64,000 nucleotides of DNA. Origin: Lysobacteraceae bacterium (GTDB taxonomy: Bacteria > Pseudomonadota > Gammaproteobacteria > Xanthomonadales > Rhodanobacteraceae). Made by a program: the position numbers and the translations under genes. Below the pieces are notes generated by a model. The model was not told the origin of the DNA. It saw only the letters and a list, made by a program, of their open reading frames with translations, and did no database searches. The stretch covers positions 1-64,000 of the forward strand of contig SEHB01000013.1 in the NCBI GenBank assembly GCA_004143945.1, read 5' to 3'. This document shows, piece by piece, positions 5,958 to 55,772 of the stretch (position 1 is the first letter of the stretch; each line of letters opens with the position of its first letter).

Positions 5958-6121
5958 TCTGGACGCGCACAGCGCGGCCGGCACCTTCCGGCCTTCGTAG
6001 GCTGGACGCGCGCAGCGCGGCCGGCGCCTTCCGGCCTTGCAGGCTGGACGCGCACAGCGCGGCCGGCGCCTTTTCTCACGCACGTCAGGAGCGCCGGCCG
6101 GCCTTCGGCCGTCCAGCCTAC
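5958..6121 (+). repeat. GTAG-type palindromic repeat cluster (three forward units, one inverted)
   Basis: Three tandem units of the form (g/c)ctggacgcgc(g/a)cagcgcgg followed by ccggc(g/a)cc start near 5958, 6000 and 6041. A unit of the second hairpin type (gcgccggccggccttcggcc, then gtccagcctac) is in reverse orientation at 6090-6121. It belongs to the same family as the copies at 9.7, 15.4, 40.3, 50.1 and 55.7 kb. The element sits between hppA and the prolyl oligopeptidase gene and does not overlap either. Confidence 0.85.
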
Positions 6122-6238
6122 CGATCCGGCTGACGCATTCCGCCGAGTGCGGAGCACCGGCAGACCCGACGTTGCGCACTGGACAGCTTCGCCGCTCCTG
6201 CGCAGGATGGGCGTTCGCCTTGCCGAACGGACCACCCG

Positions 6239-8380
6239 ATGAAGCCGATCTCCGCCGCATTCGCCGTCCTCGCCGTGCTGGCCGGCTGCAGCCAGCCGGC
6301 ACCGAAGCCGGCGCCCGCAACGAGCACCGAGATGACGACTGCCGAAGACCCCTACCTGTGGCTCGAGGACATCCACGGCGAAAAGCCGCTCGCATGGGTC
6401 GCCGAGCGCAACGCCGAAACCGCGAAGGCCTACGCCGGCACGCCGGCGTTCGAGCGCCTGCGCACGCGCATCCTCGAGGTGCTCGATTCCGACGCGCGCA
6501 TCCCGACGGTGCAGAAGATCGGTGATCGCTACTACAACTTCTGGAAGGACAAGGACCACGTGCTCGGCCTGTGGCGGCGCACGACGCTCGAGGAATACCG
6601 CAAGCCCGATCCCGCGTGGGAAACCGTGATCGACCTCGACGCGCTGTCCGAGTCCGATGGCAAGCGCTGGGTCTGGCACGGCGCGAAATGCCTCAAGCCC
6701 GCGAACCGGCGCTGCCTCGTCGCGCTGTCGCCGGGCGGTGGCGATGCCGACGTCGTGCGCGAGTTCGACCTCGTCGACAAGGCATTCGTCGAAGGCGGCT
6801 TCCACGTGCCCGAGGCGAAGAGCGAGACGGCGTGGATCGACGCCGACCGGATCTACGTCGGTACCGACTTCGGTCCCGGTTCGATGACGAAGTCGAGCTA
6901 CCCGCGCACGGTGCGCGTCTGGACGCGAGGCACGCCGCTCGAGTCGGCGACGCCGGTGTACGAAGTCGCGATGGACGACCTCGCCGCGAGCGCGACGCGC
7001 GACCTCACGCCGGGCTTCGAACGCGACTTCCTCGTGCGCACGATCGATTTCTACACCAGCGAGACGTTCCAGCGCCGCGCCGACGGCAGTCTCGCGAAGA
7101 TCGACGTGCCGCTCGACGCGGTCATCGACGTGCACCGCGAGTGGCTGCTGGTGTCGCCGCGCAGCGAATGGAGCGTCGGTGGCCGCACGCATCCGGCCGG
7201 CTCGCTGCTCGCCACGCGCTTCGACGACTACATGGCCGGCAAGCGCGAACTCGTCGCGCTGTTCACGCCGAGCGAGACCACGTCGCTGGTCGATCACTCG
7301 TGGACGCGCAACCACCTGATCCTCAACCTGCTCGACGATGTCTCGAGCCGACAGGAAGTGCTGACGCCGGCGACTGCGGGCGCGTGGGCACGCGCCCCGC
7401 TCGGCGGTGCGCCCGCGCTGTCGCAGGTCGAGGCCGAAGGCGTGGATGCCGACGACGACGATGCCTATTTCCTCAGCGTCACCGGCTTCCTCACGCCGAC
7501 CACGCTGGCCTGGGGCGAGATCGGCGGGCCCGCGCCGACCACGCTGAAGCAGACGCCTGCGTTCTTCGATGCCGCGCCCTACGCAGTGAGCCAGCATTTC
7601 GTGCGCTCGAAGGACGGCACGCGCGTCCCGTATTTCCAGATCGCGCGCAGGGATCTGGTGCTCGATGGCAGCCATCCGACCATCCTCAACGGCTACGGCG
7701 GCTTCGAGGTCTCGCGATTGCCGGTTTACAGCGGCGCGATCGGCCACGCGTGGCTCGAACAGGGCGGCGTCTACGTCGTCTCGAACATCCGCGGCGGCGG
7801 CGAGTACGGGCCGCGCTGGCACCAGGCCGCGTTGAAGGCGAACCGGCCACGCGCGTACGAGGACTTCGCCGCGATCGCCGAAGACCTGATCCGACGCGGC
7901 GTCACCTCGCGCGAACGACTCGGCGCGACCGGCGGCAGCAATGGCGGGCTGCTCGTCGGCAACATGCTGACCGAGTATCCGCAGCTCTTCGGCGCGATCG
8001 TGTGCCAGGTGCCGCTGCTCGACATGAAGCGCTACACGCACCTGTCTGCGGGTGCCTCGTGGATCGCGGAGTACGGCGACCCCGACAAGCCCGAGGAATG
8101 GAACTGGATCCGCACGTTCTCGCCGTACCAGAACGTCGAGCGCGGCCGGGACTATCCGCCGGTGCTGTTCTACACCGCGACCAGCGACGACCGCGTCGGC
8201 CCGGTGCAGGCGCGCAAGATGGCCGCGCGCATGCGCGAATTCGGCCACGCGAACGCATGGTTCTACGAGAACACCGAAGGCGGCCACGGTGGCGCCGCCG
8301 ACAACCGCCAGGCCGCGTACATGAATGCGATGACCTACGCGTTCCTCGCGCGCGAACTCGGACTTGGGGAGCCGCGATGA
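6239..8380 (+). CDS. Prolyl oligopeptidase family serine peptidase (S9A), predicted lipoprotein
   Basis: A 713-aa peptidase that cleaves after proline in short peptides. The N-terminus MKPISAAFAVLAVLAGCSQP is a lipoprotein signal with Cys17, so it should be anchored in the cell envelope and not in the cytosol. The N-terminal half forms the beta-propeller cap. The catalytic triad is visible: Ser567 in GGSNGG, Asp650/651 in SDDRVGP and His683 in GGHGG. The GGGEYGPRWHQA segment typical of the family lies before the nucleophile. The stop overlaps the start of the thioredoxin-like gene (ATGA), so the two are probably translated together in the same compartment. Confidence 0.94.
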   Translation: MKPISAAFAVLAVLAGCSQPAPKPAPATSTEMTTAEDPYLWLEDIHGEKPLAWVAERNAETAKAYAGTPAFERLRTRILEVLDSDARIPTVQKIGDRYYNFWKDKDHVLGLWRRTTLEEYRKPDPAWETVIDLDALSESDGKRWVWHGAKCLKPANRRCLVALSPGGGDADVVREFDLVDKAFVEGGFHVPEAKSETAWIDADRIYVGTDFGPGSMTKSSYPRTVRVWTRGTPLESATPVYEVAMDDLAASATRDLTPGFERDFLVRTIDFYTSETFQRRADGSLAKIDVPLDAVIDVHREWLLVSPRSEWSVGGRTHPAGSLLATRFDDYMAGKRELVALFTPSETTSLVDHSWTRNHLILNLLDDVSSRQEVLTPATAGAWARAPLGGAPALSQVEAEGVDADDDDAYFLSVTGFLTPTTLAWGEIGGPAPTTLKQTPAFFDAAPYAVSQHFVRSKDGTRVPYFQIARRDLVLDGSHPTILNGYGGFEVSRLPVYSGAIGHAWLEQGGVYVVSNIRGGGEYGPRWHQAALKANRPRAYEDFAAIAEDLIRRGVTSRERLGATGGSNGGLLVGNMLTEYPQLFGAIVCQVPLLDMKRYTHLSAGASWIAEYGDPDKPEEWNWIRTFSPYQNVERGRDYPPVLFYTATSDDRVGPVQARKMAARMREFGHANAWFYENTEGGHGGAADNRQAAYMNAMTYAFLARELGLGEPR

Positions 8381-9687
8381 AGAACGTCCTCGCCACGCTG
8401 TTGCTCGCGACCGCCGCTTTCGCGGCGCAGGCCGCCGACGTCTCGACCGTCGATGCCGCGCTCGCGCGCGCGCAGCAGGCGCACCAGCCCGTGTTCATCG
8501 ATTTCACCGCGCCGTGGTGCTACTCGTGCTACTTCATGGCGAGCCACGTATTGAACGGCGCCGAGTGGGCCGCGCTCAAGCGTCGCGCGGTGACGGTGGA
8601 GGTCGATGCCGACTCCCCGGACGGTGCGGCCTGGATGAAGAAACTCGAGGTCAAGGCGCTGCCGGCTTACGTCGTCCTCGACGAACACGGCAAGGAGCGC
8701 GGCCGCATCCTCGCCGAGCAACCGCGCGCGAAGTTCTACCCGATGCTCGACGCGATCCTCGCCGGTGCCGGCACGCTCGACGACTACCGCGCGAAGGCGC
8801 AGGCCGGCGACGCCGAGGCCGCACGCACCGTGCTCGCGTCCTACCAGGCGCGCGGCGACGGCAAGGGCGGCCTCGACTGGTACGCGACGCTCCCTGCGAC
8901 ACTGCGCGCGAAGCTCGAGCGCGATGAACGCGCGACGCTGCTGCGCGACCGCCTCGCGCTGCAGCGTGCGCGCACGGACAAGGACGATGCCGCGGCCGTC
9001 GCCGCCGCGCAGCGCGTGCTCGCGGGCGATCCGGGCTGCGAACGCCTCTACGTCGTCATGGACCTGCTCGGCGCAAGCGAGGCGATGCCCAAAGCCGAGC
9101 GCGAACCGATCCTGCGCGCACAGAAGCCCGCGCTCGATGCGCTGCTCGCGCGCGACGTGTTCGTCGCCTCGCCGACCTGCGCCGACCAGCGCAGCGCGGT
9201 GTTCGCGAGCGCCGAACTCGCGGCCGCGCTCGGCGACGCCGCCGGCGAGAAAGCCGCGCTCGATCGCGGCATCGCGGCCACGCGCGCGGCGCTCGGCGAC
9301 GACATCGGCAAGGACCGCAACGCGGCCGACAACCTGCGCGTGTACCTCACGATGGCCAAGCGCACGGCCGAACTCGACGCGCTGTTCCCGAAGCTGATCG
9401 CCGCGTATCCCGACGATTACGTCTACCCGTATCGCTGGGGTCGCAGCCTGCTCGAACGTGGCGATGCGGCGAAGGCGCTGCCGTTGCTCGAGCAGGCGGC
9501 CGAGAAGGCCTACGGCGTGAACCGCCTGACCGTCGCGAAGCTGCGCGTCGATGCGCTCTCCGCGCTCGGTCGCGCGGATGAAGCCAAGTCCGTCGCGAGC
9601 GAGGTGCTCGAACTCAACGGCGCGTGGTTCCCGCAGCAATCGGCCGAGCTGCGCAAGGCGGCGGGCATCGGCGAAGCCAGCCACTGA
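8377..9687 (+). CDS. Exported thioredoxin-domain protein with C-terminal TPR-like helices
   Basis: A 436-aa protein. A Sec signal peptide (MKNVLATLLLATAAFAAQA) is followed by a thioredoxin fold with TAPWCYSCYF (Cys48, Cys51) and the cis-proline segment VKALPAYVVLD, resembling the C-terminal domain of DsbD or DUF255-type thioredoxins. Residues from about 130 onward are alanine-rich helical repeats, including RWGRSLLERGDAAKALPLLEQA, a TPR-like motif. A periplasmic disulfide reductase or chaperone role is likely. The ATG overlaps the stop of the prolyl oligopeptidase, suggesting the pair handles envelope proteins or peptides together. Confidence 0.85.
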   Translation: MKNVLATLLLATAAFAAQAADVSTVDAALARAQQAHQPVFIDFTAPWCYSCYFMASHVLNGAEWAALKRRAVTVEVDADSPDGAAWMKKLEVKALPAYVVLDEHGKERGRILAEQPRAKFYPMLDAILAGAGTLDDYRAKAQAGDAEAARTVLASYQARGDGKGGLDWYATLPATLRAKLERDERATLLRDRLALQRARTDKDDAAAVAAAQRVLAGDPGCERLYVVMDLLGASEAMPKAEREPILRAQKPALDALLARDVFVASPTCADQRSAVFASAELAAALGDAAGEKAALDRGIAATRAALGDDIGKDRNAADNLRVYLTMAKRTAELDALFPKLIAAYPDDYVYPYRWGRSLLERGDAAKALPLLEQAAEKAYGVNRLTVAKLRVDALSALGRADEAKSVASEVLELNGAWFPQQSAELRKAAGIGEASH

Positions 9688-9708
9688 CCCGCCGGCGCGG
9701 GGGGATCT

Positions 9709-9874
9709 CGCAAGAAGCGCCGGCCGGACTGCGGCCGTGCAGCCTACGACGTCGCCAGAGCCTGCCCGCACGCGTTGCAGAATGCCTTTGTAGGCTGGAC
9801 GCGCGCAGCGCGGCCGGCGCTCCCGGCGCGCAGGGTTCCCGCAAGAAGCGCCGGCCGGCCTGCGGCCGTCCAGC

Positions 9875-9879
<5 letters not shown>
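9709..9879. repeat. GTAG-type palindromic repeats; the TAG of the right end is the kinase stop codon
   Basis: A single inverted unit lies at 9709-9749 (gccggccggactgcggccgt, then gcagcctac). A pair follows at 9790-9879: a forward gtaggctggacgcgcgcagc unit and an inverted gcgccggccggcctgcggcc unit ending cagcctac. The last CTA (9875-9877), read on the minus strand, is the TAG stop of the Ser/Thr kinase gene. Confidence 0.85.
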
Positions 9880-12664
<2,785 letters not shown>

Positions 12665-13536: not shown

Positions 13537-13633
13537 TCGACGTCGCGACGCCCGCGGAGATTTCCGCAGCGCGCGCGTCGTGTTGTCCCGGGGCAACGCG
13601 TGCGCGCGCGTTGCAGCGCACGCCCGGACGCGC

Positions 13634-15378: not shown

Positions 15379-15530
15379 GCTGGACGCGCGCAGAACGGCA
15401 CCGGCCGACCTTCGGTCATCCAGCTACCGGTCAATGCGCTTGTTCGTAGGCTGGACGCGCGCAGCGCGGCCGGCTTCGCGGCACGCGACGAAGCAAAAGC
15501 GCCGGCCGACCTGCGGTCGTCCAGCCTACG
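15379..15530. repeat. Two GTAG-type palindromic repeats in tandem
   Basis: The first copy (15379-15426) is degenerate: agctggacgcgcgcagaacg followed by an inverted ccggccgaccttcggtcatc half. The second (15446-15530) is complete, with gtaggctggacgcgcgcagc forward and gccggccgacctgcggtcgt inverted. They lie between two minus-strand genes; the DUF2333 gene stops (TGA) 10 bases beyond the second copy. Confidence 0.85.
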
Positions 15531-15539
15531 AAATGCGCC

Positions 15540-16556
15540 TCAGCCGCGCTCGAGCAACCTGCGCAGGTCGATCATCGCGGCGTTCGCGCGCGAAATGTAA
15601 TTGGCCATCACGAGCGAATGGTTGGCGAAGAATCCGAACGGCCGGCCGTTCAGCACGATCGGGCTGCCGAGCGACTTCTGCGACTCCTCGAGTTCGCGGA
15701 TCACCTGGTCGAGGCTGACCAGCGCGTTCTTGTCGCGCAGCACCGGAGCGAAGTCGATGCGGATCGCCTCGAGCTGTTCGCGCAGCGCCCAGCTGTAGCC
15801 ACGCGCCTCGTAGAAGTTGTCGTCGATCTTCAGCCACGGGGTCTGCACCAAGCGCGGGCTGTCGGCCGGCTTGGACTGCTGCGCATTCGGGTCGCCCGCG
15901 AGGTCGGTGTCGACGCGGACCTGGCCGGCGGCGGCCGACAGGCGCTGCGACAGCGAACCGAGCCGAGTCGACGCGACCTGCAGGTAGTCGGCGAGGTTGT
16001 CCGCGCGCGCATAGAACTGCGCATTGGTCGGGTCGTTGTCGGTGAGTCGCGCGAGGTAGCCGTCGACGTGCGTGAGCGCCTTGCGATACTGGCCTTCCGA
16101 ACTCGGCAGCAGCCAGCGGTCGTTGGGCGAACTGAACAGCGGCTCGGCTTCCTGCAGGTCGCGGTCCTCGACCGACTGCGTCTGCGAACGGCTGAGGTCG
16201 TTGCGCAAGGCACGCGCGAGGTCGCGCGTCGCGGTCAGCACGCCGAATTCCCAGTTCGGCACGTTGTCCATCAGCAGGCCGGGCGGGAACAGGTCGTTGC
16301 TGAGGTAACCGCCACGCTTGTCGAGCAGCGTGCGCGCCGAGGCCATCAGCGTGGCAGTCGTGACGCTGCCGGTGGTCAGCGGCTGGCGACGCTCGCTCGC
16401 CGCGCGCTGCGCGTTCGCACCGACGTCGAAGTGCGCGGGCTCGTAGTCCCACCACCACATCAGCGCGAGCACGACGATTGCGTACACGAGCAGCACCGCG
16501 CCGAGCGCGCGCAGCAGCCACGACTTTCGATTCGCCTGTGTTGCCGTCGCTTCCAC
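15540..16556 (-). CDS. DUF2333 family membrane-anchored protein
   Basis: A 338-aa protein with one N-terminal membrane helix (about 12-34, ending MWWWDYEP) and a large helical periplasmic domain. The sequence matches the DUF2333 family as I remember it: a short cytosolic tail, the WWD motif after the helix, GGYLSNDLFPPG, MDNVPNWEFGVL, and a C-terminal region noting NHSLVMANYISRANAAMIDLR. Function is unknown; the family is common in gammaproteobacteria. The start is GTG 16556 with GGGAG upstream. A repeat lies just after the stop. Confidence 0.85.
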   Translation of the reverse strand: MEATATQANRKSWLLRALGAVLLVYAIVVLALMWWWDYEPAHFDVGANAQRAASERRQPLTTGSVTTATLMASARTLLDKRGGYLSNDLFPPGLLMDNVPNWEFGVLTATRDLARALRNDLSRSQTQSVEDRDLQEAEPLFSSPNDRWLLPSSEGQYRKALTHVDGYLARLTDNDPTNAQFYARADNLADYLQVASTRLGSLSQRLSAAAGQVRVDTDLAGDPNAQQSKPADSPRLVQTPWLKIDDNFYEARGYSWALREQLEAIRIDFAPVLRDKNALVSLDQVIRELEESQKSLGSPIVLNGRPFGFFANHSLVMANYISRANAAMIDLRRLLERG

Positions 16557-17363: not shown

Positions 17364-19429
<2,066 letters not shown>

Positions 19430-19637: not shown

Positions 19638-20174
19638 ATGGCAGCCAGGACCACGACCATGAACCGCCTTTCTTCCCTGCCCCGCGTGCTGCAGGCCGTG
19701 TTGCTGCTCGCACCGCTCGCGCTTTCCGCAGCCGACGCGCGCGTGAAGCTGGACTGGACCGATCCCGAAAAATTCACCGACACGCGCCAGAGCATGTGCA
19801 GCTCGACGATCGGGCCCGACGAGTGGCTCGGCGAGCTCGCGCGGCATGTCGAGTCTCGCGCGGCGAAACAGATCGAGCCCGGGCAGCACCTTGCGATCAC
19901 GATCACCGACGTGCGTCGCGCGGGCCAGTGCGAGCCGTGGCGCGGGCCGCAGGCGTCCGACGTGCGCATCGTGAAGGAACCGCATTCGCCGCGCATCGAC
20001 CTTCGCTACGTGTTGTCCGACGCGGACGGCAAGGTGCTGCGAGAAGGAACCGGGGAGCTGCGCGACCTCGCGTTCCTGCAGAGGGGGACCCTCAACGCGA
20101 ACGATCCGCTGCGGTTCGAGAAGCGCATGCTCGACGACTGGCTGCACAAGACCTTCCCGGCACACGCGCCGTAG
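19638..20174 (+). CDS. DUF3016 family exported protein
   Basis: A 178-aa secreted or periplasmic protein: signal peptide through about residue 36 (LLLAPLALSAADA), then the DUF3016 pattern with VKLDWTDPEKFTDTRQSMC near the start of the mature part, DEWLGELARHVESRAA and ITITDVRRAGQCEPW. Two cysteines may form a disulfide. Function is unknown. ATG 19638 has GTGGAG seven bases ahead; ATG 19659 is a possible alternative. Its TAG stop is the head of a degenerate repeat (gtaggccggac). Confidence 0.8.
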   Translation: MAARTTTMNRLSSLPRVLQAVLLLAPLALSAADARVKLDWTDPEKFTDTRQSMCSSTIGPDEWLGELARHVESRAAKQIEPGQHLAITITDVRRAGQCEPWRGPQASDVRIVKEPHSPRIDLRYVLSDADGKVLREGTGELRDLAFLQRGTLNANDPLRFEKRMLDDWLHKTFPAHAP

Positions 20175-20200
20175 GCCGGACGAGCGCAGATCATCCAGTC
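20171..20200 (+). repeat. Degenerate GTAG repeat supplying a stop codon
   Basis: The sequence gtaggccggacgagcgcaga followed by tcatccagtc looks like a decayed copy of the gtaggctggacg... repeat with its closing ...tccagcctac arm partly lost. The TAG (20172-20174) ends the DUF3016 gene. Confidence 0.6.
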
Positions 20201-20209
20201 CCGTGCGCG

Positions 20210-20441
20210 CTGAGCGCAGCGGACGAAGTCCGCGGAGTCGAAGCGCCGCGCGTGCCGCGATACCACCGCGAACGGCCCCTTCGACTCCGACCTTCGGTCT
20301 GCGCTCAGGGCGAACGGGGGGAGTCCGTTCCGGCTGAGCGCAGCGGACGAAGTCCGCGGAGTCGAAGCGCCGCGCGTACCGCGATACCACCGCGAACGGG
20401 CCCTTCGACTCCGACCCTCGGTCTGCGCTCAGGGCGAACGG
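20210..20441. repeat. Two tandem copies of a palindromic element, period 124 bp
   Basis: Copies at 20210-20317 and 20334-20441 are almost identical. Each opens with ctgagcgcag and closes with its exact complement ctgcgctcag, with inner arms gaagtccgcggagtcgaag and cttcgactccgacc that also pair, giving a long hairpin. They fill most of the 373-base gap between the DUF3016 gene and pepQ. Confidence 0.9.
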
Positions 20442-21879: not shown

Positions 21880-21952
21880 ACGCGGCTCGCCGGCGCCGCT
21901 GCGATCGGCGGAGTCGCGACACCGGACAGCGTTGCGATCGTGCAACGGGAAC

Positions 21953-21975
21953 TCCGCGGCTGCGCCGCTCCTACA
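21953..21975 (-). repeat. GTAGGAGCGGCGCAG repeat half supplying a stop codon
   Basis: Read on the minus strand: ctgtaggagcggcgcagccg. This is the second repeat family of the window (GTAGGAGCG...). Its GTAG provides the TAG stop (21971-21973) of the DUF2167-like gene. Confidence 0.75.
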
Positions 21976-22972
21976 GGTCGCGCAGCCGGTGGCGGCCCGT
22001 GACGAGGTCGACGAGGTCGAATCGCGACTTCTTGTCGAACAGGCGCGAGTAGTCGGCGTACGCGCGGCCTTCGAGGAAGCGGCTGCTGCCCGCGACAAGG
22101 CGCACCGCGCGCAGGCACAGCTCCTGCCTCGCCGGCGCCATGTCCTGGATCGAGAACTGCAGTGCGCCAGCGCGCCCGAGCTTGATCGCATGGCAGTTGC
22201 GGGTCGTGGCGCCTTCGTCGGCGTAGCGGATGTCCTCGGCCCAGGTCAGCAACGCGTCGGACACGTTGTACACCGGCGTTTCGGCAAAACGCGCGAGTTC
22301 GAATTCGGGTGTGTCGTCGAGCCCGGACAGTCGCTGCGCGGTCGCGCGTGCTTCGGCCAGCAGCGCGTCGTTGCCGTACACGGCCAGGCGGTCGGCGCTG
22401 ACGAAACCTTCGCCGAACCAGTCGAGGTCGATATACCAGGCCGTGTCGGATGCGAGGTCGACGCTCTCGTGCACGATCCAGCCGAGGGCGGCTGCATGCG
22501 GCACGTCGTCGACCTCGATGCCGGCCCCGCGCAGCGCTTCGGACGAGACGAAACGGAAGTGCGACGGCAGGTCGATCCGGGCCTGCGCCTGCGGCAACGC
22601 AATCGTGCCCGCGCGGTACGGCAGGCCCGCGTATGCGACCTTCAGGCGCATGCGGTCGTCCAACGCGTCGTCACCCGCGGGCGCGCCCGATTCGGTGAAT
22701 GCGCCAGCGAAGCGCTTTGGCGATTCGTGGGTGGTTCCCCAGGCGAGCAGGCCGATCCAGGTGCAGAGCAGCACCAGCGCGACCAGCATCGGCACGCGCG
22801 GGTTGTCCTTTTCGGCCGACCAGTAGCGGACCATCGCGTAGAGGCCGACCGGAAACAGAAGCGAGAGCATGCCGAGCCGCGGCTCGTGGCGATGGATGCG
22901 GATCACGCCGAACAGGTAGACCAGCCCGAACACCAGCGGCAACGCGATGGACGCGTAGGGCATGGTCGACAT
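21971..22972 (-). CDS. Membrane-anchored protein, DUF2167-like
   Basis: A 333-aa protein. Three hydrophobic segments near the N-terminus (about 5-23, 33-48 and 62-80) precede a soluble domain. The domain shows the DUF2167 pattern: LPSHFRFVSSEALRGAGI, GWIVHESVDL, DLDWFGEGFVSADRL, LLTWAEDIRYADEGATTRN, GRAGALQFSIQ and a final EGRAYADYSRL. Here the membrane part is N-terminal, whereas in typical members as I recall them the membrane segments come last. Function is unknown. It is 9 bases downstream of the Sm-like gene and probably cotranscribed with it. The TAG stop comes from a repeat head. Confidence 0.7.
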   Translation of the reverse strand: MSTMPYASIALPLVFGLVYLFGVIRIHRHEPRLGMLSLLFPVGLYAMVRYWSAEKDNPRVPMLVALVLLCTWIGLLAWGTTHESPKRFAGAFTESGAPAGDDALDDRMRLKVAYAGLPYRAGTIALPQAQARIDLPSHFRFVSSEALRGAGIEVDDVPHAAALGWIVHESVDLASDTAWYIDLDWFGEGFVSADRLAVYGNDALLAEARATAQRLSGLDDTPEFELARFAETPVYNVSDALLTWAEDIRYADEGATTRNCHAIKLGRAGALQFSIQDMAPARQELCLRAVRLVAGSSRFLEGRAYADYSRLFDKKSRFDLVDLVTGRHRLRDL

Positions 22973-39572: not shown

Positions 39573-40325
39573 GTGGATCTTTCGCAGTTCCTGCTGTTCG
39601 TCGGCGTCGGACTCCTCGCACAACTCGTGGACGGCTCGCTCGGCATGGCCTACGGGCTCGTGTCCAACTCGGTGCTGCTCGCACTCGGGCTCCCGCCTGC
39701 GGTCGCGAGCGCAACCGTGCACGCGGCCGAAGTCGCCACCACCGCCGTGTCGGGTCTGTCACATGCGCGCTTCGGCAACATCAACTGGAAGCTGTTCCGC
39801 CGGCTCGCCATCTACGGCGCGCTCGGCGGCATCATCGGTGCGACCCTGCTCGCGAAGGTGCCGGGCGATGCGATCAAGCCGTTCGTCAACGCCTACCTGC
39901 TGATCCTCGGCAGCATGATCCTGCTGCGCGCCTGCGGGAAGCGCCTGATCCGCCACCAGGTGCGCCATCCGGGGCCGCTCGGCTTCACCGCAGGCCTGCT
40001 CGATGCGATCGGCGGCGGCGGCTGGGGTCCGCTCGCGACGAGCACGCTGCTCGCGCGCGGTGGCGCGGTGCGCAGCACGATCGGCACCGTCAACGCGTCG
40101 GAGTTCGTCGTCACCACCTGCATCTCGGCGACGCTGATCATGCACATCGGCATGGACCACTGGCAGGTCGTCGCGGGCCTGCTCGTCGGTGGCGTGATCG
40201 CCGCGCCGCTCGCAGCGTGGCTCGTGCGGCACCTGCCGGAAAAGCCCGTGATGATCGCGGTCGGCGTGCTGATCGTCGCGCTGAGCGTGTGGCAGCTCGT
40301 GCAGACATTCGTCGCGGCATCGTAG
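39573..40325 (+). CDS. TauE/SafE family permease (sulfite exporter type)
   Basis: A 250-aa membrane protein with about eight helices in two repeats; each repeat shows the family's glycine-rich loop ([17 protein letters not shown] and [16 protein letters not shown]). Members export sulfite, sulfoacetate or other small anions. GTG 39573 is the only fitting start. It lies 25 bases after clp. Its TAG stop (40323-40325) is the head of a gtaggctggacg repeat. Confidence 0.88.
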
Positions 40326-40413
40326 GCTGGACGGCCGAAGGCCGGCCGGCGCTCCTGCGTTCGCACGCTGGATCGGGGAAAAGCGCCGGCCGCGCTGCGC
40401 GCGTCCAGCCTAC
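40322..40413 (+). repeat. GTAG-type palindromic repeat pair supplying a stop codon
   Basis: A forward unit gtaggctggacggccgaagg followed by an inverted unit of the other hairpin type (gcgccggccgcgctgcgcgc, then gtccagcctac). The first GTAG contains the stop codon of the TauE/SafE gene. Confidence 0.88.
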
Positions 40414-43966: not shown

Positions 43967-44058
43967 TCGGGAGTGCACCCTGTGCGCGAACGCGCCGTTC
44001 GCATGCCGGCGCGCAACCCCTTCCAGGCGCGGATCGCGCACAGGGTGCGCTCCTACGG
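43967..44058. repeat. Inverted GTAGGAGCGCACCCTGTGCGCG-type repeat supplying a stop codon
   Basis: A forward arm gggagtgcaccctgtgcgcg (about 43968-43987) and an inverted arm tcgcgcacagggtgcgctcc followed by tacggg (about 44034-44058) face each other across about 45 bases. The CTA at 44053-44055, read on the minus strand, is the TAG stop of the antiporter gene. Confidence 0.85.
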
Positions 44059-45786
44059 GTTCGCGGTGGGCACGCCGGTTGTGCCTTCGTCCGCGACCTC
44101 GGGCCGCCGCTCGAACCAGCGCACGATGCCGTCGACCGCCTCGCACATGCTGCGCGCGACCTCGCGCTCGCCCATGATCGCGGCGTCGGCGCCGTTGCGC
44201 AGCAGGTAGGCGACTTCCTCGTCCGAGTGCGCGCGCGCCATCACCGCGATGCCCGGGTTCGCCTCGCGCGCGCGACGGATGATCTGGCCCGCTTCGAGCG
44301 GCTGCGGAATCGCGACGAGCAGCGCCCGTGCGCTCGCGATGTTGGCCGCCTCGAGCGTCTCTTCGGCCGCTGCGTTGCCGAGGATGCCTGCGATGCCGGC
44401 CGTACGCGCGTCCTCGAGGAAGTCGCGGTTCGATTCGACCAGCACGACCGGCCGGCCAGCCGCATGCAGCGTGCGGCCGACCAGCGACCCGACGCGGCCG
44501 TAACCGATCAGCACGACATGGTCGCGCTCGGGCACCGGGGGGCCGGGCGGAACGTCCGGCTCCACCGCGGCCTCCGCGGCGGCAGCCGCCTCGGCTTCGC
44601 GTTGCTTCGTCCAGCGATCGAGCAGCGTGAACAGAAACGGGTTCGCGCAGATCGAAATGATCGCTCCGGCCAGGATCAGGTCGCGCGCGTCGCGCGTAAG
44701 CAGTCCGAGGTCCACGCCGAGCCCCGCGAGGATGAACGAGAACTCGCCGATCTGCGCGAGGCTCGTCGAGATCGTGAGCGCCACCTCAGGCGTGCGGCCG
44801 AACGCGCGCACGATCGCGAACGCGCCGACCGACTTGCCGACGAGGATGATCAGCAGCACGCCGAGCAGCGGCAAGGGTTCGCGCAGCAGGATCGAAGGAT
44901 CGAACAGCATCCCGACGGACACGAAGAACAACACCGCGAACGCGTCGCGGAATGGCAGCGAGTCCTGCGCGGCCTTGTGGCTCAGCTTCGATTCGTTGAG
45001 CACCATGCCGGCGAAGAAGGCGCCGAGCGCGAACGAGACCCCGAACAGCGTCGCCGACGCATAGGCGACACCGAGCGCGATCGCGAGCACCGCCAGCGTG
45101 AACAGTTCGCGCGAGCCGGATCCGGCCGTCCGTTCGAGCAGCCACGGGATCACGCGCCGGCCCACCACGAGCATCACCGCGACGAACGCCGAGACCTTGC
45201 CGAGCGTGGTCGCGAGCGTGATCCACACGTCGCCGCCCTTCGCACTGCCGTCTTCGCCGCCGAGCAGGCCGGCAATCGCGGGGAGCAGCACGAGCACGAG
45301 CACCATCGCGAGGTCCTCGACGATCAGCCATCCGATCGCGATGCGCCCGCGCAGCGTTTCGAGCAGGCGTCGCTCCTCGAGCGCGCGCAGCAGCACCACC
45401 GTGCTCGCGACCGACAGCGCCAAGCCGAACACCAGCCCGGAGCCGATCGGCCACCCCATGAGCCATCCGAGCGCCATGCCGAGCAGGGTCGCGATCGCGA
45501 TCTGCGCGGCGGCACCAGGCACCGCGATTGCGCGCACCGACAACAGGTCACCGAGCGAAAAGTGCAGGCCGACGCCGAACATCAGCAGGATCACGCCGAT
45601 CTCCGACAGCTCCGGCGCGAGCGTCTGGTCCGCGAACATGCCCGGCGTGAACGGGCCCAGCACGACGCCCGCGAGCACGTAGCCGACGATCGGCGACAGC
45701 CGCAGGCGTTGCGCGGTCATGCCCGCGACATAGGCGAGCACGAACGCGGACACGAGCGTCGCGATCAGCGGGGTGTGGTGCGGCAT
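44053..45786 (-). CDS. Cation:proton antiporter of the CPA2 family (YbaL/KefB-like) with TrkA-N domain
   Basis: A 577-aa protein: about 12-13 membrane helices (LRLSPIVGYVLAGVVLGPFTPG, LMFGVGLHFSLGDLL, STVVLLRALEERRLLET), then a cytosolic RCK/TrkA-N domain from about 430 with the nucleotide-binding HVVLIGYGRVGSLVGRTL. It closely matches E. coli YbaL in the membrane part and is likely a K+ or Na+ efflux system gated by a nucleotide. I chose ATG 45786 (MPHHTPLIATLV), which fits YbaL; ATG 45807 is possible. TAG stop from a repeat. Confidence 0.9.
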   Translation of the reverse strand: MPHHTPLIATLVSAFVLAYVAGMTAQRLRLSPIVGYVLAGVVLGPFTPGMFADQTLAPELSEIGVILLMFGVGLHFSLGDLLSVRAIAVPGAAAQIAIATLLGMALGWLMGWPIGSGLVFGLALSVASTVVLLRALEERRLLETLRGRIAIGWLIVEDLAMVLVLVLLPAIAGLLGGEDGSAKGGDVWITLATTLGKVSAFVAVMLVVGRRVIPWLLERTAGSGSRELFTLAVLAIALGVAYASATLFGVSFALGAFFAGMVLNESKLSHKAAQDSLPFRDAFAVLFFVSVGMLFDPSILLREPLPLLGVLLIILVGKSVGAFAIVRAFGRTPEVALTISTSLAQIGEFSFILAGLGVDLGLLTRDARDLILAGAIISICANPFLFTLLDRWTKQREAEAAAAAEAAVEPDVPPGPPVPERDHVVLIGYGRVGSLVGRTLHAAGRPVVLVESNRDFLEDARTAGIAGILGNAAAEETLEAANIASARALLVAIPQPLEAGQIIRRAREANPGIAVMARAHSDEEVAYLLRNGADAAIMGEREVARSMCEAVDGIVRWFERRPEVADEGTTGVPTANP

Positions 45787-45883
45787 CGGGTCGTCCGGAG
45801 TCGGCATGCGACGGGACGCGGCACGCCATCGGCGCAGTTTAACCGACGGCGCGCGGCGCACCGGCCGGCGTCATTACACCAAA

Positions 45884-45920: not shown

Positions 45921-45921
45921 C

Positions 45922-47623: not shown

Positions 47624-47717
47624 CGACTGCGCATCGAAGCCCGCGCGCGCGTCTCGACCGTGCGGTCGCATGCCTCGCACGGCGGCGTCGTGCCTGCCTG
47701 CGCAACCTGAGGTGGAG

Positions 47718-49193: not shown

Positions 49194-49385
49194 GTCATTG
49201 GCCGGGATCGTAGGGGCCGGCGACGATATCAGGCCGCGTGGCGGCGCAACAGCCCGAACGTGCGGCGGCGGGCTTGCGCGGCACCGCCGGTCGGAGCACG
49301 CTGCGGCGCGATGCGCGGAACGTGGGTTCGCGCGCAGGCGGATCTTCGATCCGAAGGGCGCGCGGCACGGCGGGGAGACGCGGCG

Positions 49386-50090
49386 ATGGCACGGAAGGAA
49401 TCGCCCCGACGCGAGGGCGACGCGAACGCGGTCGAATGTGTGCCCGCTGCAGTGACGCGGAGACGTCCGCTCGAGGTCGCGGCCATCCTGCTGCGCCACG
49501 CCGCTCCACTCGCGACCCTCGTCGCGTGGCACGGCTCGGTGCACACCTACCTGCTGCTCGCGCTGTTCGACCTCGGCGTCGGGTACGCCGGCCATCAACT
49601 GCGCGGCAAGCCGGCCGGCACTCGCGATGCGCTCGCCGCTGCGCACACGCCGACCGAGCGTGCGCTCGCGTGGCTGCAGCTGCCGATGCTGATGGCGTTC
49701 GCGGGCGGGTTGTTCGTGTTCACCGCGATGCTGTTCCTGCTGCCCTTCCTCGCCGCGTTCCTGTGGCAGCCGCTGGCTGCGGCCGTGAAGGCGGATGCGG
49801 CCCTGATCGTCGCGAGCGCCGCGGTCACGAGCATCGCGGGCGCGCGCCAGTTCGACCACGCGCTGGCTGGCGCGGGAGCCGACGCGCGCACGTACCGCCT
49901 CGCGGGCGATCGCGGCGCGCGCCGCGCCCTGGCATCGCTCGGACTGTTCCTGATGCTCGCGGGTTACGCGCTCGCCTTCGGCCGCGCGTCGGTCGGCCTT
50001 TGGGTACTCGCGACGCTGTTCACCGCCTGGCTCTGCGCGATCGACCTCGAATGGAAGCCGCGCTGGCAGCGGCAGCGCAAGCCCTCGTAG
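49386..50090 (+). CDS. Integral membrane protein of unknown function
   Basis: A 234-aa protein with a charged N-terminus ([16 protein letters not shown]) and about five membrane segments ([85 protein letters not shown] and a final one). No motif is recognised. It is divergent from trpE. Its TAG stop (50088-50090) is the head of a gtaggctggacg repeat, so its last codons may differ from relatives without the repeat. Confidence 0.75.
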
Positions 50091-50168
50091 GCTGGACGCG
50101 CGCAGCGCGGCCGGCTCGCGCGTCGGCAGGGCGAAAGGCGCCGGCCGACCTTCGGTCGTCCAGCCCAC
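50087..50168 (+). repeat. GTAG-type palindromic repeat pair supplying a stop codon
   Basis: A forward unit gtaggctggacgcgcgcagc and an inverted unit gcgccggccgaccttcggtc ending gtccagccca. GTAG at 50087-50090 contains the stop of the upstream membrane protein. Confidence 0.88.
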
Positions 50169-50188
50169 GGGTGCGCTGCACCGTTGCG

Positions 50189-51223: not shown

Positions 51224-53247
51224 GCACTTTCTCCTTCCGCGAGGCGCCGGCGTGGCATGCCGGCAAGGGTGATCGTGAATTCCACGCCGCTGCCATCGGC
51301 GAGGTTCGCTGCGCTGGCGCGACCGCGATGCAGCTCGGCGACGAGCCGCACGACGTAGAGGCCGAGGCCGAGGTGCGGCACGGCCCCTTCGCGCGGCGCC
51401 GCGCGTTCGCGCAGCGAGACGAGCGAATCGAACAACCGCTCCTGCATCGAGGCCTGCAGCAACGGGCCCGAGTTGGCCACGCGGATCGATGCCTCGCCAT
51501 CGCGCAATTGCAGCGAGATCGCGATGCGACCCTGCGCGGGCGTGAACGAGCACGCGTTGTCGAACAGCTTGTCGAGCGCCTGCGCCACGAGGTCCGGGGC
51601 GCCATGCATCGGTACGGCACCCGGCGGGAGCGCGATGTCGAGACGGCGCGGCTGCGCGAGCACCCGATAGCCTTCGCCGCAGGCCGCGACCAGCGCACGC
51701 AGGTCGAAATCCTCGGCCTCGGCCGACGCGATCGCACGCTCGATGCGGTTCGCCTCGCTCATCGCGCGCACGATCGCGCCGAGCCGCTCGGCGCCCTGCC
51801 GCGCGCGCGCGAGGTACGCGCGCGTGGATTCTGGCAGCGGCTCGTGCTCGAGGTTGTCGAGCGAGGATTTCACGATCGCGAGTGGCGTGTTGAGCTCGTG
51901 CGACAGCTTCGAAGCGAGGCTGCGCAGGTAGTCGGTGTACGCGCGGACCTCGTCGACGAGGCGCGCGAAGCTGCGCGCGAGGTCGCCGAGTTCGTCGCGC
52001 GAGTCCGCCAACGGCATCGGGCCGTCCAGCCGTCCCGACGTCCGCACCGCCCGTTCGGCCGCGTCGCGCAGCCGGCGGATGCGCCACGAGAGGGTCGCGC
52101 CGAACGCGAGCAGCACGAGCCCGGCGACCACGAGCGCGGACAGCGTCGCGAGCGCGAGCCCGGTCAGCGCCCGGCGCGCGAGCGCCGGCACCGCGGCATC
52201 GGCCTGTTCGAACAACAGCGCGCCACGCCTGCCGGACGCGTCGTCGAGCGGAACGGCCGCAGCGAGCACGACGCCGCCGCCGACGTCCGCTGCACGCCAG
52301 CTCGTCGCCGGCGTACCCGCGAGCGCCGCACGCAGTTCGCGCTCGTCGAAGCGCGGCGAATCGAGCGCGAGCCCCGGCGATCCGTCGAGGCGCGGCGCGA
52401 TCAGCACGCGATAGACGAGGCTCGCGAACCAGCCCGGCGTGGTGCCGACTGCGTCCGCGAGGTCGAGCGATCCCGCCGCCGCGAGCAGGTGCGCCTGCGC
52501 CGACAGGATCCGCACGCGCGCATGCGCGGGTACCAGCGGCGCGACTTCGCGCGAAACCGTCGCGTCTTCGCGATCGAGCTCGCGCGCATGCACGGCGACA
52601 TCATCACCGGGGCGCGCGGCATCGTGCATCGCCAGGCCGATTCGACGCGGCGTGCCCGCGCGCGGCAGACGCAGCTCGATCCGGTAACCGGAGCCGTCTT
52701 CCTGCAGCGCTCCCTCGAGTTCTTCGGGCAGCACGGTGCCGTGCTCGCGCGCGCGCGTGCGGAACGAGCCGGGTGCGGCGCCCGAGAGCAGGTAGCTGCG
52801 CGCCTCGCCATCTTGCTCGAGCAGCAGCACGACATGGTCGCCATCGGGCGCGCGCGGACTCGACGGGTCGACGCGCGTGCGCGTCGCGTCGCGCACATCG
52901 AGGAACAGGTGCACGCCGTTGCGCGCTTCGCCGAGCAGCACCTGCAGGCGCGCCGGGTCTGCCACGGATCCGACCGCCTGCGCGTGCGCTCGTACCGCGG
53001 CCCAGTCGTCACCATACCCGTCGACCACCACCGCTTCGTCGAGCGCGTGCACGTACAGCGCGTCCGCCGGCGGAAGCGCGAGCCCGCGCGCGACCAGCGC
53101 GCTCGCGAGCATGCGCGCCGACGCCAGCAACGCCTGCTCCCGCCCTTCGCGCAGCAGCACTTCGGTCTGCCGCACGAACTGCCAGCCCGCCCATGGCAAG
53201 GCGAGCGTCGACAGGGCGACCAGCAGGAGCTTGAGGCGGAGGGACAT
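51220..53247 (-). CDS. Sensor histidine kinase, PdsS-like (proteobacterial dedicated sortase system type)
   Basis: A 675-aa membrane kinase. An N-terminal helix (about 5-22) is followed by a periplasmic CBM9-like domain (EAVVVDGYGDDWAAVRAHA, GVHLFLDVRDATRT) and a second helix (about 345-375). HAMP (RIRRLRDAAERAVR) and HisKA with phospho-His450 in SKLSHELNTPLAIV come next, then HATPase_c with LDKLFDNACSFTPAQG and LGLGLYVVRLVAELHRG. The layout and length match TIGR03785-type kinases. Start ATG 53247 with GGCGGAGG on the wrong strand and no clear ribosome site. A G-run repeat lies immediately upstream. It overlaps the BNR protein gene at its end. Confidence 0.85.
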   Translation of the reverse strand: MSLRLKLLLVALSTLALPWAGWQFVRQTEVLLREGREQALLASARMLASALVARGLALPPADALYVHALDEAVVVDGYGDDWAAVRAHAQAVGSVADPARLQVLLGEARNGVHLFLDVRDATRTRVDPSSPRAPDGDHVVLLLEQDGEARSYLLSGAAPGSFRTRAREHGTVLPEELEGALQEDGSGYRIELRLPRAGTPRRIGLAMHDAARPGDDVAVHARELDREDATVSREVAPLVPAHARVRILSAQAHLLAAAGSLDLADAVGTTPGWFASLVYRVLIAPRLDGSPGLALDSPRFDERELRAALAGTPATSWRAADVGGGVVLAAAVPLDDASGRRGALLFEQADAAVPALARRALTGLALATLSALVVAGLVLLAFGATLSWRIRRLRDAAERAVRTSGRLDGPMPLADSRDELGDLARSFARLVDEVRAYTDYLRSLASKLSHELNTPLAIVKSSLDNLEHEPLPESTRAYLARARQGAERLGAIVRAMSEANRIERAIASAEAEDFDLRALVAACGEGYRVLAQPRRLDIALPPGAVPMHGAPDLVAQALDKLFDNACSFTPAQGRIAISLQLRDGEASIRVANSGPLLQASMQERLFDSLVSLRERAAPREGAVPHLGLGLYVVRLVAELHRGRASAANLADGSGVEFTITLAGMPRRRLAEGESA

Positions 53248-53256
53248 TCGAGAGCC

Positions 53257-53482
53257 GGGTATGGGGAAGGGGTATGGGGCAGGCTGCGACCTGTGCCCGC
53301 GATGTGCGCGGATGAGAGTCACACGACTGCAACGCAATCGCCGACGAAGAGGATACTTCCACACCTACGCAAGATCGGGGCCCCAGGGATCGTGCGTGCA
53401 TGCGCGGTCGGTCATTCCGGCTCCGATGCGAACCGGGAAGCCCAGATCCCTGCGGTTCCATTCCCCGTTCCCATTCCCTATG
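53257..53482 (+). repeat. G-run repeat arm and distant inverted C-run arm flanking the kinase promoter region
   Basis: G-runs at 53257-53259, 53263-53266, 53269-53272 and 53276-53279 form a four-tract arm; the matching inverted arm ccattccccgttcccattcc lies at about 53460-53479. The about 175 bases between hold no gene. The whole element fills the gap between the response-regulator stop and the kinase start. Confidence 0.8.
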
Positions 53483-53491
53483 TCCCGCCTT

Positions 53492-54181
53492 TCATGCCCT
53501 CCACCGATACCCCGCCCCGTGGACGGTATCGATCGCGTCGAACGCGGGGTCGATCGCGAGGAACTTCTTGCGGATGCGCTTGATGTGCGAGGTGATCGTC
53601 GCGTCGTCGACGACCACCTGGGCGTCGCGCATGAGCTGGTCGCGGTTCTTCACGTGGCCGGGAAAGCGCACGAGGGTATGCACCATCCAGAACTCGGTCA
53701 CGGTCAGCGGCACGTCGACGCCGTTCCAGCTCACGCGCATGCGCTCGGCCTCGATCTTCAGCGGGCCGTGCTCGACCACGCTGTCGGCCGCGACCGGCTT
53801 GCGCAACGCATCCATGCGCCGGAACAGCGCATTGATGCGCGCGGCGAGCTGGTGCAGCGAGATGTCCTTGGCGAGGTAGTCGTCGGCGCCGAGGCGCAGG
53901 CCCGAGATCACGTCGAAATCCGAATCGCGCGCGGTCAGGAACAGGATCGGCAGGGTCGGCGCACGCGCGCGCAGGTTGCGGCAGAGGTCGAAGCCGCCCT
54001 CGGGTTCGTCGCCGAGGCCGACGTCGATGATCACGAGTTCGGGCAGGCGTTGCGCGAACGCAGCTTCCGCCTCGCCGCGCGAGGCGTAGCCGCGCACGTC
54101 GTATCCGAGCCGTGCGAGTGCTTCGGAGTAGTTCGCGCGGATCAAGGGTTCGTCCTCGACGATGGCGATGTGGCGCGGCAT
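53492..54181 (-). CDS. Response regulator, PdsR-like (OmpR/PhoB family)
   Basis: A 229-aa regulator. The receiver domain has EDEPLIRANY, phospho-Asp53 in LVIIDVGLGDEPEGGFDLC, the T/S in LPILFLTARDSDFD and Lys in DDYLAKD; a winged-helix output domain covers about 130-229 (LTVTEFWMVHTLVRFPGHV, DATITSHIKRIRKKF). The combination closely resembles TIGR03787 'proteobacterial dedicated sortase system response regulator'. AGGAGG precedes ATG 54181. It is followed by the kinase gene after a 244-base gap. Two very small genes are divergent from it and may be targets. Confidence 0.88.
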   Translation of the reverse strand: MPRHIAIVEDEPLIRANYSEALARLGYDVRGYASRGEAEAAFAQRLPELVIIDVGLGDEPEGGFDLCRNLRARAPTLPILFLTARDSDFDVISGLRLGADDYLAKDISLHQLAARINALFRRMDALRKPVAADSVVEHGPLKIEAERMRVSWNGVDVPLTVTEFWMVHTLVRFPGHVKNRDQLMRDAQVVVDDATITSHIKRIRKKFLAIDPAFDAIDTVHGAGYRWRA

Positions 54182-54355
54182 GGCGATTCCTCCTGGTGTC
54201 GCGGCCAGCTTATGGGCCGCTTCCGCACAGGCGCAACGGCCCGCGTGCCGATGCCCGGGAATTGCCACAACTCGTCGGCGCCGCGGCCGCGCGCCGGCGG
54301 CATGTGCACCCCGCACGGCGCTGCAATGGCAGCGCCTGCCCAGCGGAGAAATGCG

Positions 54356-54469
54356 ATGGACATCGAACGACCCGACCCGAACGCCGAACTTCACGCGCGT
54401 GAGCGCCTGCGCATCCTGTTCGCGATCGGATCGCTGCTGCTCGGCCTGCTCGCCGCAGCGCAGGTGTGA
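54356..54469 (+). CDS. Small single-pass membrane peptide (37 aa), candidate
   Basis: MDIERPDPNAELHARERLRI followed by a hydrophobic segment (LFAIGSLLLGLLAAAQV) that runs to the end. A CGGAG ribosome site lies nine bases before ATG 54356. It is divergent from the PdsR-like regulator and followed after four bases by another small gene and then a strong terminator, which supports expression. No family is recognised; a regulator-linked small membrane protein is possible. Confidence 0.5.
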   Translation: MDIERPDPNAELHARERLRILFAIGSLLLGLLAAAQV

Positions 54470-54473
54470 CGCG

Positions 54474-54629
54474 ATGAACCTGTACCACGACGACACGATG
54501 GACGGGACGCGCAGGTCCGCCACGGACTGGCTCGATGGCGGCACGGAAGCCGCTCCGCTCGCTGTGGCGCCGCCGGCGCGCGGGCCTGCGACGGAATCCA
54601 CGCCCGATCCGTCTTGGAGAGCGTTGTAA
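54474..54629 (+). CDS. Small soluble peptide (51 aa), candidate
   Basis: A short acidic, proline-rich peptide starting MNLYHDDTMDGTRRSATDWL. It begins four bases after the preceding small gene, within reach of translational coupling, and its TAA is followed by a terminator. No family is recognised and it could be spurious, but the spacing and terminator favour a real two-gene unit. Confidence 0.42.
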   Translation: MNLYHDDTMDGTRRSATDWLDGGTEAAPLAVAPPARGPATESTPDPSWRAL

Positions 54630-54663
54630 CGGCCCGATCGACCGGGCTGCCGTTTGCGTCACC

Positions 54664-54713
54664 CGCGCCGGGCCATGTCCCCTCCTCCCCCCGGGCCCGG
54701 CGCGGCTCTTTTC
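54664..54713 (+). terminator. Intrinsic terminator after the two small genes
   Basis: cgcgccgggcc (54664-54674) pairs with ggcccggcgcg (54694-54704) across a 19-base loop and is followed by gctcttttc. This is a strong GC stem with a short T-run on the plus strand. Confidence 0.65.
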
Positions 54714-54781
54714 GCACGCGGCGCCGCGGACGCGCCTCGAAGCCGGCGAAACCGCATGGCGCGCTGAACTCGCAGCATGAC

Positions 54782-54926
54782 GCTCGCGACTGCGCCGCTC
54801 CTGCGACGGCTGCGGCTGGTGCGTTTCCCGCCGTAGGAGCGCCGCAGGCGCGATCGACGACACGTCGGATCCGCATGACGCGGCGAACACGCGACATCAC
54901 GGTCGCGGCCGCGCCGCTCCTGCAGG
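54782..54926. repeat. Three GTAGGAGCG-type repeat units in alternating orientation
   Basis: An inverted unit (gactgcgccgctcctgcgac, about 54788), a forward unit gtaggagcgccgcaggcgcg (54833-54852) and another inverted unit (ggccgcgccgctcctgcagg, about 54907-54926). The cluster runs up to the rpe stop codon. Confidence 0.8.
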
Positions 54927-54927
54927 A

Positions 54928-55602
54928 TCACCGGGCGCCGATGGCGGCCTTCATGCGCGCGATCACGTCGGCGTAGTCGGGTTCGCTGAAGATCGCCGAG
55001 CCCGCGACGAAGGTGTCGGCGCCCGCGCGCGCGATCTCCGCGATGTTCGACGGCTTCACGCCGCCGTCGATCTCCAGCCGGATCGGCCGGCCGCTCGCGT
55101 CGATGCGCTCGCGCACCGCGCGCAGCTTGTCGAGCGCGGCGGGAATGAAGGACTGGCCACCGAAGCCCGGGTTCACCGACATGATCAGCACGAAATCGAG
55201 CTTGTCGAGCACGTGGTCGAGCCATGCGAGCGGCGTGGCGGGGTTGAACACGAGCCCGGCCTTGCAACCGGAGTCGCGGATCAGGCCGAGCGTGCGGTCG
55301 ACGTGCTCGCTGGCTTCGGGGTGGAAGCTGATGCAGCTCGCGCCGGCCTTCGCGAAGTCGGGCACGATGCGATCGACGGGCTTCACCATGAGGTGCACGT
55401 CGATCGGCGCGGTCACGCCGTGCTTGCGCAGCGCCTCGCACACCAGCGGGCCGATCGTGAGATTCGGCACGTAGTGGTTGTCCATCACGTCGAAATGGAC
55501 CCATTCCGCGCCGGCCGCGACGACCGCGTCGACTTCTTCGCCGAGGCGCGCGAAATTCGCCGAGAGGATCGAGGGCGCGATGACCGGTGATTGACGTGGC
55601 AT
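54928..55602 (-). CDS. rpe: Ribulose-phosphate 3-epimerase
   Basis: Interconverts ribulose 5-phosphate and xylulose 5-phosphate. The 224-aa TIM barrel has [33 protein letters not shown] (metal ligands), [31 protein letters not shown] and [12 protein letters not shown]. It is full length, and complements rpiA at 32 kb in the same pathway. ATG 55602. Repeats lie at both sides of the gene. Confidence 0.97.
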
Positions 55603-55689
55603 GTTGGTGTCCGCAGTCGTGTGTCTTGTGCAGGGGCGGCGCAGCAGCGACAGGCGCAGGTTAACACCGCATGCACGCCGGCCACTTCC

Positions 55690-55772
55690 GCAGGCTGGAC
55701 GGCCACAGGCCGGCCGGCGTCGTGCGCACGCGGAATGCGCGTGGCGGCCGCGCTGCGCGCAGCCAGCCTACA
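55690..55772 (-). repeat. GTAG-type palindromic repeat pair supplying a stop codon
   Basis: A slightly decayed forward unit caggctggacggccacaggc and an inverted unit gcggccgcgctgcgcgcagc ending cagcctac. The CTA at 55768-55770 is, on the minus strand, the TAG stop of djlA. Confidence 0.82.

Follow-up and report, generated by a model that had tools for sequence, protein, structure and literature searches.

Among repetitive extragenic palindromic (REP) sequences, the GTAG superfamily described by Di Nocera et al. in 2013 (PMC3733652) is characterized by a GTAG head that precedes a palindrome, by many intergenic copies, and by a location near the 3′ ends of genes. Di Nocera, De Gregorio and Rocco (PMC3733652) remark that the GTAG termini often supply the TAG stop, which they call opal, of flanking open reading frames. 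The overlap between such repeats and stop codons is therefore not a new phenomenon, since that paper already states it; yet the accessible portions of the paper contain no count, null model, empty-site comparison, or cause for it that we could find, and we found no count, null, or cause in the accessible portions of the open-licence literature searched. Here, we analyzed this overlap starting from a stretch of 64,000 nucleotides (nt) of a Lysobacteraceae bacterium (positions 1 to 64,000 of contig SEHB01000013.1, assembly GCA_004143945.1; hereafter "the window"), in which REP repeats with a GTAG head end seven genes with the TAG of that head. This overlap is genuine and greatly exceeds chance in the sampled 43% of the genome.

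Other described systems share parts of this arrangement, as far as the accessible portions of the papers cited here describe them. Pseudomonas REPINs (Bertels and Rainey 2011, PMC3116915) are likewise inverted REP doublets that form hairpins and are tied to REP-associated tyrosine transposases (RAYTs), although their palindrome is GGGGGCTTGCCCCC and their stem is different; the word "stop" is absent from the text of that paper. The repeats studied here fall into family A, with the head GTAGGCTGGACG..., and family B, which is defined by the head GTAGGAGC plus a stem because a search with GTAGGAGCG was not enriched. Family B resembles the REPs of Xanthomonas (Nunvar et al. 2010, PMC2817692) in its build, GTAGGAGCGCACC...GCGC, in which GA separates the head from the palindrome, but belongs to another genus and differs in loop and stem variants. 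The SMAG elements of Stenotrophomonas have the GTAG head and high copy number in common with our repeats (PMC2817692), and a by-eye comparison found families A and B unlike the stems in the accessible portions of that source. In E. coli, REPs that lie no more than 15 nt from a stop codon are said, in a second-hand account (PMC12306157), to stall ribosomes. A hairpin beside a stop is likewise present there, but the E. coli stop is described as lying upstream of the repeat, whereas here it lies inside the repeat head.

We sampled the genome that holds the window (G000; 3,669,871 bases in 29 contigs) by adding to the window 78 further stretches, none longer than 20 kb and mostly alternate 20-kb blocks, giving 79 sequences and 1,578,922 bases (1.579 Mb, 43% of the genome). 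A congener of a second species (G006) was used as a replicate, with 20 stretches picked around its repeats; labels beginning with L denote sequence stretches taken from G000, G006, and relatives. Genes were called with a home-made caller that uses an iterated codon-pair model, which yielded 1399 genes in the G000 sample, whose 1350 visible stops comprise 1089 TGA, 191 TAG, and 70 TAA. Offsets give the position of the T of GTAG relative to the first base of the stop.

The exact in-frame stop of a gene coincides with 37 of the 121 GTAG heads in the G000 sample. Under a null in which heads were placed at random over noncoding DNA and the last 45 nt of genes (2000 draws, with the heads of tandem arrays treated as independent), 4.95 in-frame stops were expected, with a maximum of 14. 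The same null gave 9.65 out-of-frame read-throughs, and none was observed; indeed, the last 45 nt of same-strand genes held no out-of-frame GTAG head in either G000 or G006. Of the other G000 heads, 76 lie downstream of genes: 47 on the same strand as the gene, with offset 11 as the shortest distance, and 29 on the opposite strand. Five are inside genes, 4 of them in opposite-strand genes and 1 in a same-strand gene at 107 nt from the gene end, and 3 were unassigned. In G006, 10 of 51 heads lie at stops, the nearest other offset is 12, and one head falls within a same-strand gene, at a distance of 3111 nt from the gene end. Across both genomes, the spike at offset 0 (47 heads) is followed by a complete gap, with no GTAG head at offsets 1 to 10. 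The earlier note on this DNA had held that its proposal would fall if in-frame stops were no more frequent among the repeats than random placement gives; the overlap far exceeds random placement in the sampled 43%, so the proposal is not refuted there. It is very improbable that the pattern is an artefact of wrong gene ends or a chance run within the window. Although the window is a small sample with one degenerate head among its seven, and although the gene caller is home-made, the overlap recurs at 30 of the 106 heads outside the window, is replicated in the second species, and involves genes with orthologues in 16 of 47 cases.

Within the window, which holds 15 of the 121 heads, our own gene calls confirmed the starting observation of the earlier note that 7 of 10 TAG stops lie inside GTAG heads of REP repeats. 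The total number of visible stops changed from 57 (42 TGA, 5 TAA, and 10 TAG) to 54 (41 TGA, 3 TAA, and 10 TAG). The seven stops, at 9875, 20172, 21971, 40323, 44053, 50088, and 55768, each follow a G and are in frame. Pfam backs six of the seven protein names that had been assigned (with matches to kinase, DUF3016, DUF2167, TauE, Na/H exchanger with TrkA-N, and DnaJ/TerB); the seventh, a 234-residue protein that had been named a membrane protein, has no Pfam family.

On the minus strand, the gene for a Ser/Thr protein kinase with TPR repeats (9875..12664; start codon uncertain) ends with the TAG at 9877-9875 in the minus-strand head, read down from 9878, of a family A inverted pair at 9790..9878. 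The DUF3016 protein gene (19659..20174, plus strand) ends in a degenerate family A head, GTAGGCCGGACG, at 20171..20190 (plus strand; stem lost and end set by eye), and the DUF2167 protein gene (21971..22963, minus strand) ends in a family B repeat at 21952..21974 on the same strand, with its far end set by eye. For the TauE/SafE-family exporter gene (39573..40325, plus strand), the stop is the left head of a family A inverted pair at 40322..40413, and the right head of this pair lies at offset 26 from the stop of a converging gene. The stop of the gene for the Na+/H+ exchanger with a TrkA-N domain (44053..45807, minus strand) is the near head of a family B inverted pair at 43970..44056, the far end of which was set by eye and the far copy of which is without the GTA of its head. 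The gene for the 234-residue protein (49386..50090, plus strand) ends in a family A inverted pair at 50087..50168 that is predicted to fold into a single long hairpin of −51.3 kcal/mol (z of −2.4 versus shuffles) with the TAG at its foot. Finally, the djlA-like gene (55768..56559, minus strand; TerB and DnaJ domains) takes its stop from the minus-strand head of a family A inverted pair at 55690..55771. Two of the seven heads are weak: the one at 20171 is a remnant without a stem, and the one at 55771 is two bases off the consensus.

Window matches to GTAGGCTGGACG with at most 2 mismatches number 22 versus 6.2 expected; GTAGGAGCG with at most 1 mismatch is not enriched there (18 versus 18.7 expected). 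Repeats of family A that do not provide stops also occur in the window, namely an inverted pair at 15446..15529, with a head at offset 14 from the stop of the gene at 15540-16556, and a cluster at 5997..6121, with heads at 5997 and 6039 on the plus strand and at 6121 on the minus strand. A different inverted repeat lies at 20200-20318, directly behind the DUF3016 stop; its core, CTTCGACTCCG...TTCGG, has 19 matches in the G000 sample, all outside genes.

The properties of these repeats are those of REPs and REPINs. The GTAG head lies directly 5′ of a GC-rich imperfect palindrome, and copies are numerous and outside genes, with 76 of the 121 GTAG heads between genes in addition to the 37 at a stop. 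Inverted doublets are of regular length: in G000 and G006 together, 103 GTAG heads have a same-family inverted partner within 150 bp, and 78 of these 103 span 80 to 95 bp. The whole of G000 contains 115 exact family A heads (0 for the reversed-pattern control) and G006 contains 74, whereas each of the 14 further genomes searched across the genus has at most 1. A REP-associated tyrosine transposase is encoded at C4:3775-4062 (NF047646, 179.5 bits against a cut-off of 80), with exact copies of the family A head on either side (3353-3478 and 4179-4305), a position that suggests that it is the cognate transposase of family A. The repeats thus form a RAYT/REPIN-type system, which bears out the claim that GTAG heads here mark elements of this type, and we infer that they are mobile. 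In one array (L040:670-1294), six family A pairs are repeated in tandem with a period of ∼108 bp, and the first head is the stop of the preceding gene.

A third REP-like family served as a control because its head, GTGG (GTGGGAGGGACTTCAGTCCC type), contains no stop. The G000 sample holds 81 copies with the pattern GTGGGAGGG[A/G]CTT[C/T]AG[C/T]CCC (e.g., L036:7179, L036:7266, L039:7470, and L040:14378), of which 80 are outside genes and 1 is inside a same-strand gene, mostly far from stops; none was found in the G006 stretches. Just 3 of 50 downstream GTGG heads lie within 40 nt of the upstream stop, versus 47 of 84 GTAG heads (37 of them at the stop itself). Because GTGG heads keep away from gene ends, close apposition to gene ends is associated with a TAG in the head. 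Heads of families A and B that lack the TAG (GCAG, GCGG, and GTGG) point the same way: 5 lie at offsets 6 to 9 and 22 at 11 to 40, versus 0 and 22, respectively, for TAG heads, a contrast that is weak alone (p = 0.056).

How often an available GTAG carries a repeat gives a further measure of this dependence. Occupancy was 37 of 119 at stops and 38 of 147 at downstream offsets 11 to 299 in G000, and 10 of 36 and 24 of 79, respectively, in G006. Pooled, stops (47/155) and downstream sites (62/226) are alike (p = 0.57), which is the pattern expected of an element limited by GTAG. In G000, the density of GTAG per position is ∼70 times higher at stops than downstream. A G precedes 82 of 154 TAG stops without a listed repeat, 64% of TAA stops, and 15% of TGA stops. 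At offsets 3 to 10, none of the 10 GTAG sites carries a repeat (p = 0.04 if occupancy is 0.27).

The model that we prefer, and to which we would give not quite an even chance, is that repeat placement is limited by pre-existing GTAG and that insertions that break genes are lost. REPINs, as short inverted pairs of GTAG-headed palindromes, would be moved by the RAYT, and one of the two heads would be a GTAG already at the landing site rather than new DNA. The spacers of this GC-rich genome contain few GTAG, which instead cluster at stop codons, since a G often stands before TA-type stops. Landing behind a G-TAG stop would leave the protein and its stop unaltered, and landing behind a GTAG within a gene would destroy the gene, with loss of the insertion; under these two rules, many repeats would be found at stops and none out of frame or just behind stops. 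Later mutation or deletion at gene ends would produce the end shifts seen in other genes. In Pseudomonas (PMC3116915, accessible portion), REPIN excision leaves a footprint of ∼6 bp from the right-hand conserved sequence, which fits a head supplied by the target. The more specific proposal that amber stops act as landing pads, where the element inserts behind GTAG and adopts the G-TAG of the gene as one of its recognition heads, is possible but somewhat less probable; ∼30% of the G-TAG stops sampled in G000 already carry a repeat.

Comparison with relatives bears on these models. Within the stretches fetched from relatives, orthologues were found for 12 of the 37 repeat-stop genes of G000 and 4 of the 10 of G006; the other 31 genes had no relatives in these stretches that passed the filters, and for the L166 gene, the relative G001 (L275) was left out, as its reading frame ran off the stretch. 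A relative was regarded as repeat-free if no repeat was seen in the printed bases behind its stop. Spacers were not alignable because the relatives are only ∼70 to 90% identical in DNA where they match. The protein end is the same in most relatives for 5 of the 16 genes: DUF3016 (2 of 3 relatives), the 358-residue gene of L072 (9 of 9), the 495-residue gene of L080 (5 of 5), and the 477- and 345-residue genes of L165 (6 of 6 and 7 of 7, respectively). At that same residue, the relatives of the L072 gene use TAG in 7 of 9 cases, those of the L080 gene use TAG in 3 and TAA in 2 of 5, and those of the 345-residue L165 gene use TAG in 4, TAA in 2, and TGA in 1 of 7; the same-end relatives of DUF3016 and of the 477-residue L165 gene use TGA. 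As a base rate, 10 of 97 relatives that share the end of a TGA gene use TAG. Ordinary TAG genes gave TAG in 2 of 16 pairs, but with only 7 genes they are too few as a control for conservation.

In the remaining 11 of the 16 genes, protein ends differ from those of relatives by 1 to ∼14 residues or vary in any case. Relatives are 1 to 3 residues shorter for the 769-residue gene of L068 (4 of 4) and 2 shorter for the 577-residue gene of L082 (2 of 2), and variable ends, large shifts, or single relatives characterize the antiporter, L040, the 763- and 409-residue genes of L072, L092, the 264-residue gene of L165, and L166. With 5 of 16 ends unchanged and the others shifted or variable, the suggested effects of the repeats on protein C termini look mostly small. 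We also searched for empty GTAG sites in a panel of 80 loci, mostly from other genera and including at least 5 congeners (L191 and L194-L197). Among 16 pairs of loci in this panel, 0 of 11 clean indels passed a GTAG-plus-hairpin filter. In IS200/IS605-like insertion at a fixed target tetranucleotide, the tetranucleotide is there at the empty site before the element arrives; here, three genes suggest that it was, and the others are ambiguous or suggest that it was not. The base that precedes GTAG was considered as a sign of a pre-existing GTAG and dropped as evidence, because with real codon-position frequencies both models fit equally well (log-likelihoods of −50.4 and −49.2).

Several observations weigh against GTAG-limited placement. 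In the 80-locus panel, a 6-bp stem is present directly behind GTAG at 6 of 102 stops versus 42 of 179 downstream sites (p = 1e-4); 5 of the 6 stop matches resemble REPs by eye, and the same test in G000 gave 14 of 118 stops and 17 of 147 downstream sites, on a background of a few per cent. RAYT enzymes in vitro cut at CT or CA and use GTAG as a guide (PMC8266576, accessible portion), so GTAG is not established as the target, although such cleavage is compatible with GTAG-limited placement. Relatives mostly end in TGA for 12 of the 16 genes, mostly in TAG for 3, and in TAA, with a single relative, for 1. The djlA-like protein is one residue shorter than its relatives (15 of 15), and its far flank, GGAAGTGG, resembles a lost AAGTGA end; the relatives of the 187-residue L068 protein are 2 residues longer in 4 of 5 cases. 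Moreover, three units stop both of two converging genes, which one target-supplied head does not explain. These units fill the whole gap between the genes and consist of a pair at L082:11862-11941, a pair at L092:4340-4431, and three heads at L072:13706-13822.

Much of this evidence would favor an alternative in which the repeat carries its own TAG. Insertions would occur anywhere near gene ends, those with the TAG in frame would survive at the cost of a few residues of the protein, and out-of-frame read-throughs would be lost. The predominance of TGA in relatives, end shifts of 1 to 14 residues in several genes, the apparently displaced end of djlA, the units that supply stops from both ends, and a cut at CT or CA, outside GTAG (PMC8266576), are all on its side. 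However, even with in-frame insertions over the last 15 codons, only 5 heads at stops would be expected, and the harmless offsets 3 to 10 hold none of the 172 GTAG heads of G000 and G006, versus 47 at offset 0. Nor are displaced stops evident among the 25 stop-giving heads that have a partner, in which the units in L072, L082, and L092 were counted from both ends. A stop triplet occurs within 10 nt of the far end of the repeat in 1 of 25 (24 lack one), versus 10 of 78 nonstop heads, and within 40 nt in 10 of 25 versus 36 of 78. We regard a borne TAG as rather unlikely to be the general explanation. Another candidate, in which the element enters at the CT of a C-TGA stop, was rejected, as none of the 25 heads has a displaced TGA within 7 nt of the far end of its repeat.

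In a third scenario, the repeat lands downstream and a deletion then joins the gene end to its head, to be kept only if the TAG is in frame. Deletion capture accounts for the absence of displaced stops, for units that span the whole gap between converging genes, and for proteins that are longer as well as shorter than those of relatives, and spacer deletion may be the source of the double-stop units. It also predicts GTAG heads at offsets 3 to 10 behind intact stops, where none was seen, and GTGG repeats near stops, which were likewise not seen, and it leaves the genes with mostly TAG-ending relatives unexplained, making it unlikely as the main route. GTAG-limited placement remains our preference, and a mixture of it with borne TAG and deletion capture is likely.

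Other repeats occur in the same sequences. A family B-type repeat, GTAGGAGCGCTGCC..., lies in a gap between converging genes in L146 (congener G005) that is the same as that in L072, and is not at a stop; this gap may be a recurrent repeat site. A repeat of ∼115 bp at about 2821-2935 of L080 has many sites in G000, mostly at 78 to 88% identity, including on C25, C19, C28, C29, C17, C13, C10, and C8. A loose pattern detects 43 arrays of tandem heptamers of the GGGAAT type in the G000 sample (e.g., window:24942 and 37698, L045:15457, L055:15207, and L068:11374); 38 arrays lie outside genes, and several TAG stops adjoin such arrays.

Even if this is an ordinary case, it provides a counted and controlled version of what was a one-sentence remark in the literature. 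Were the identity of the stop codon to govern the placement of a domesticated transposase, then stop choice, mRNA 3′ ends, and the spread of repeats would be coupled, and where RAYT elements insert would become testable by comparing TAG with TGA genes. If amber stops do act as landing pads, the choice of stop codon would control where repeats spread.

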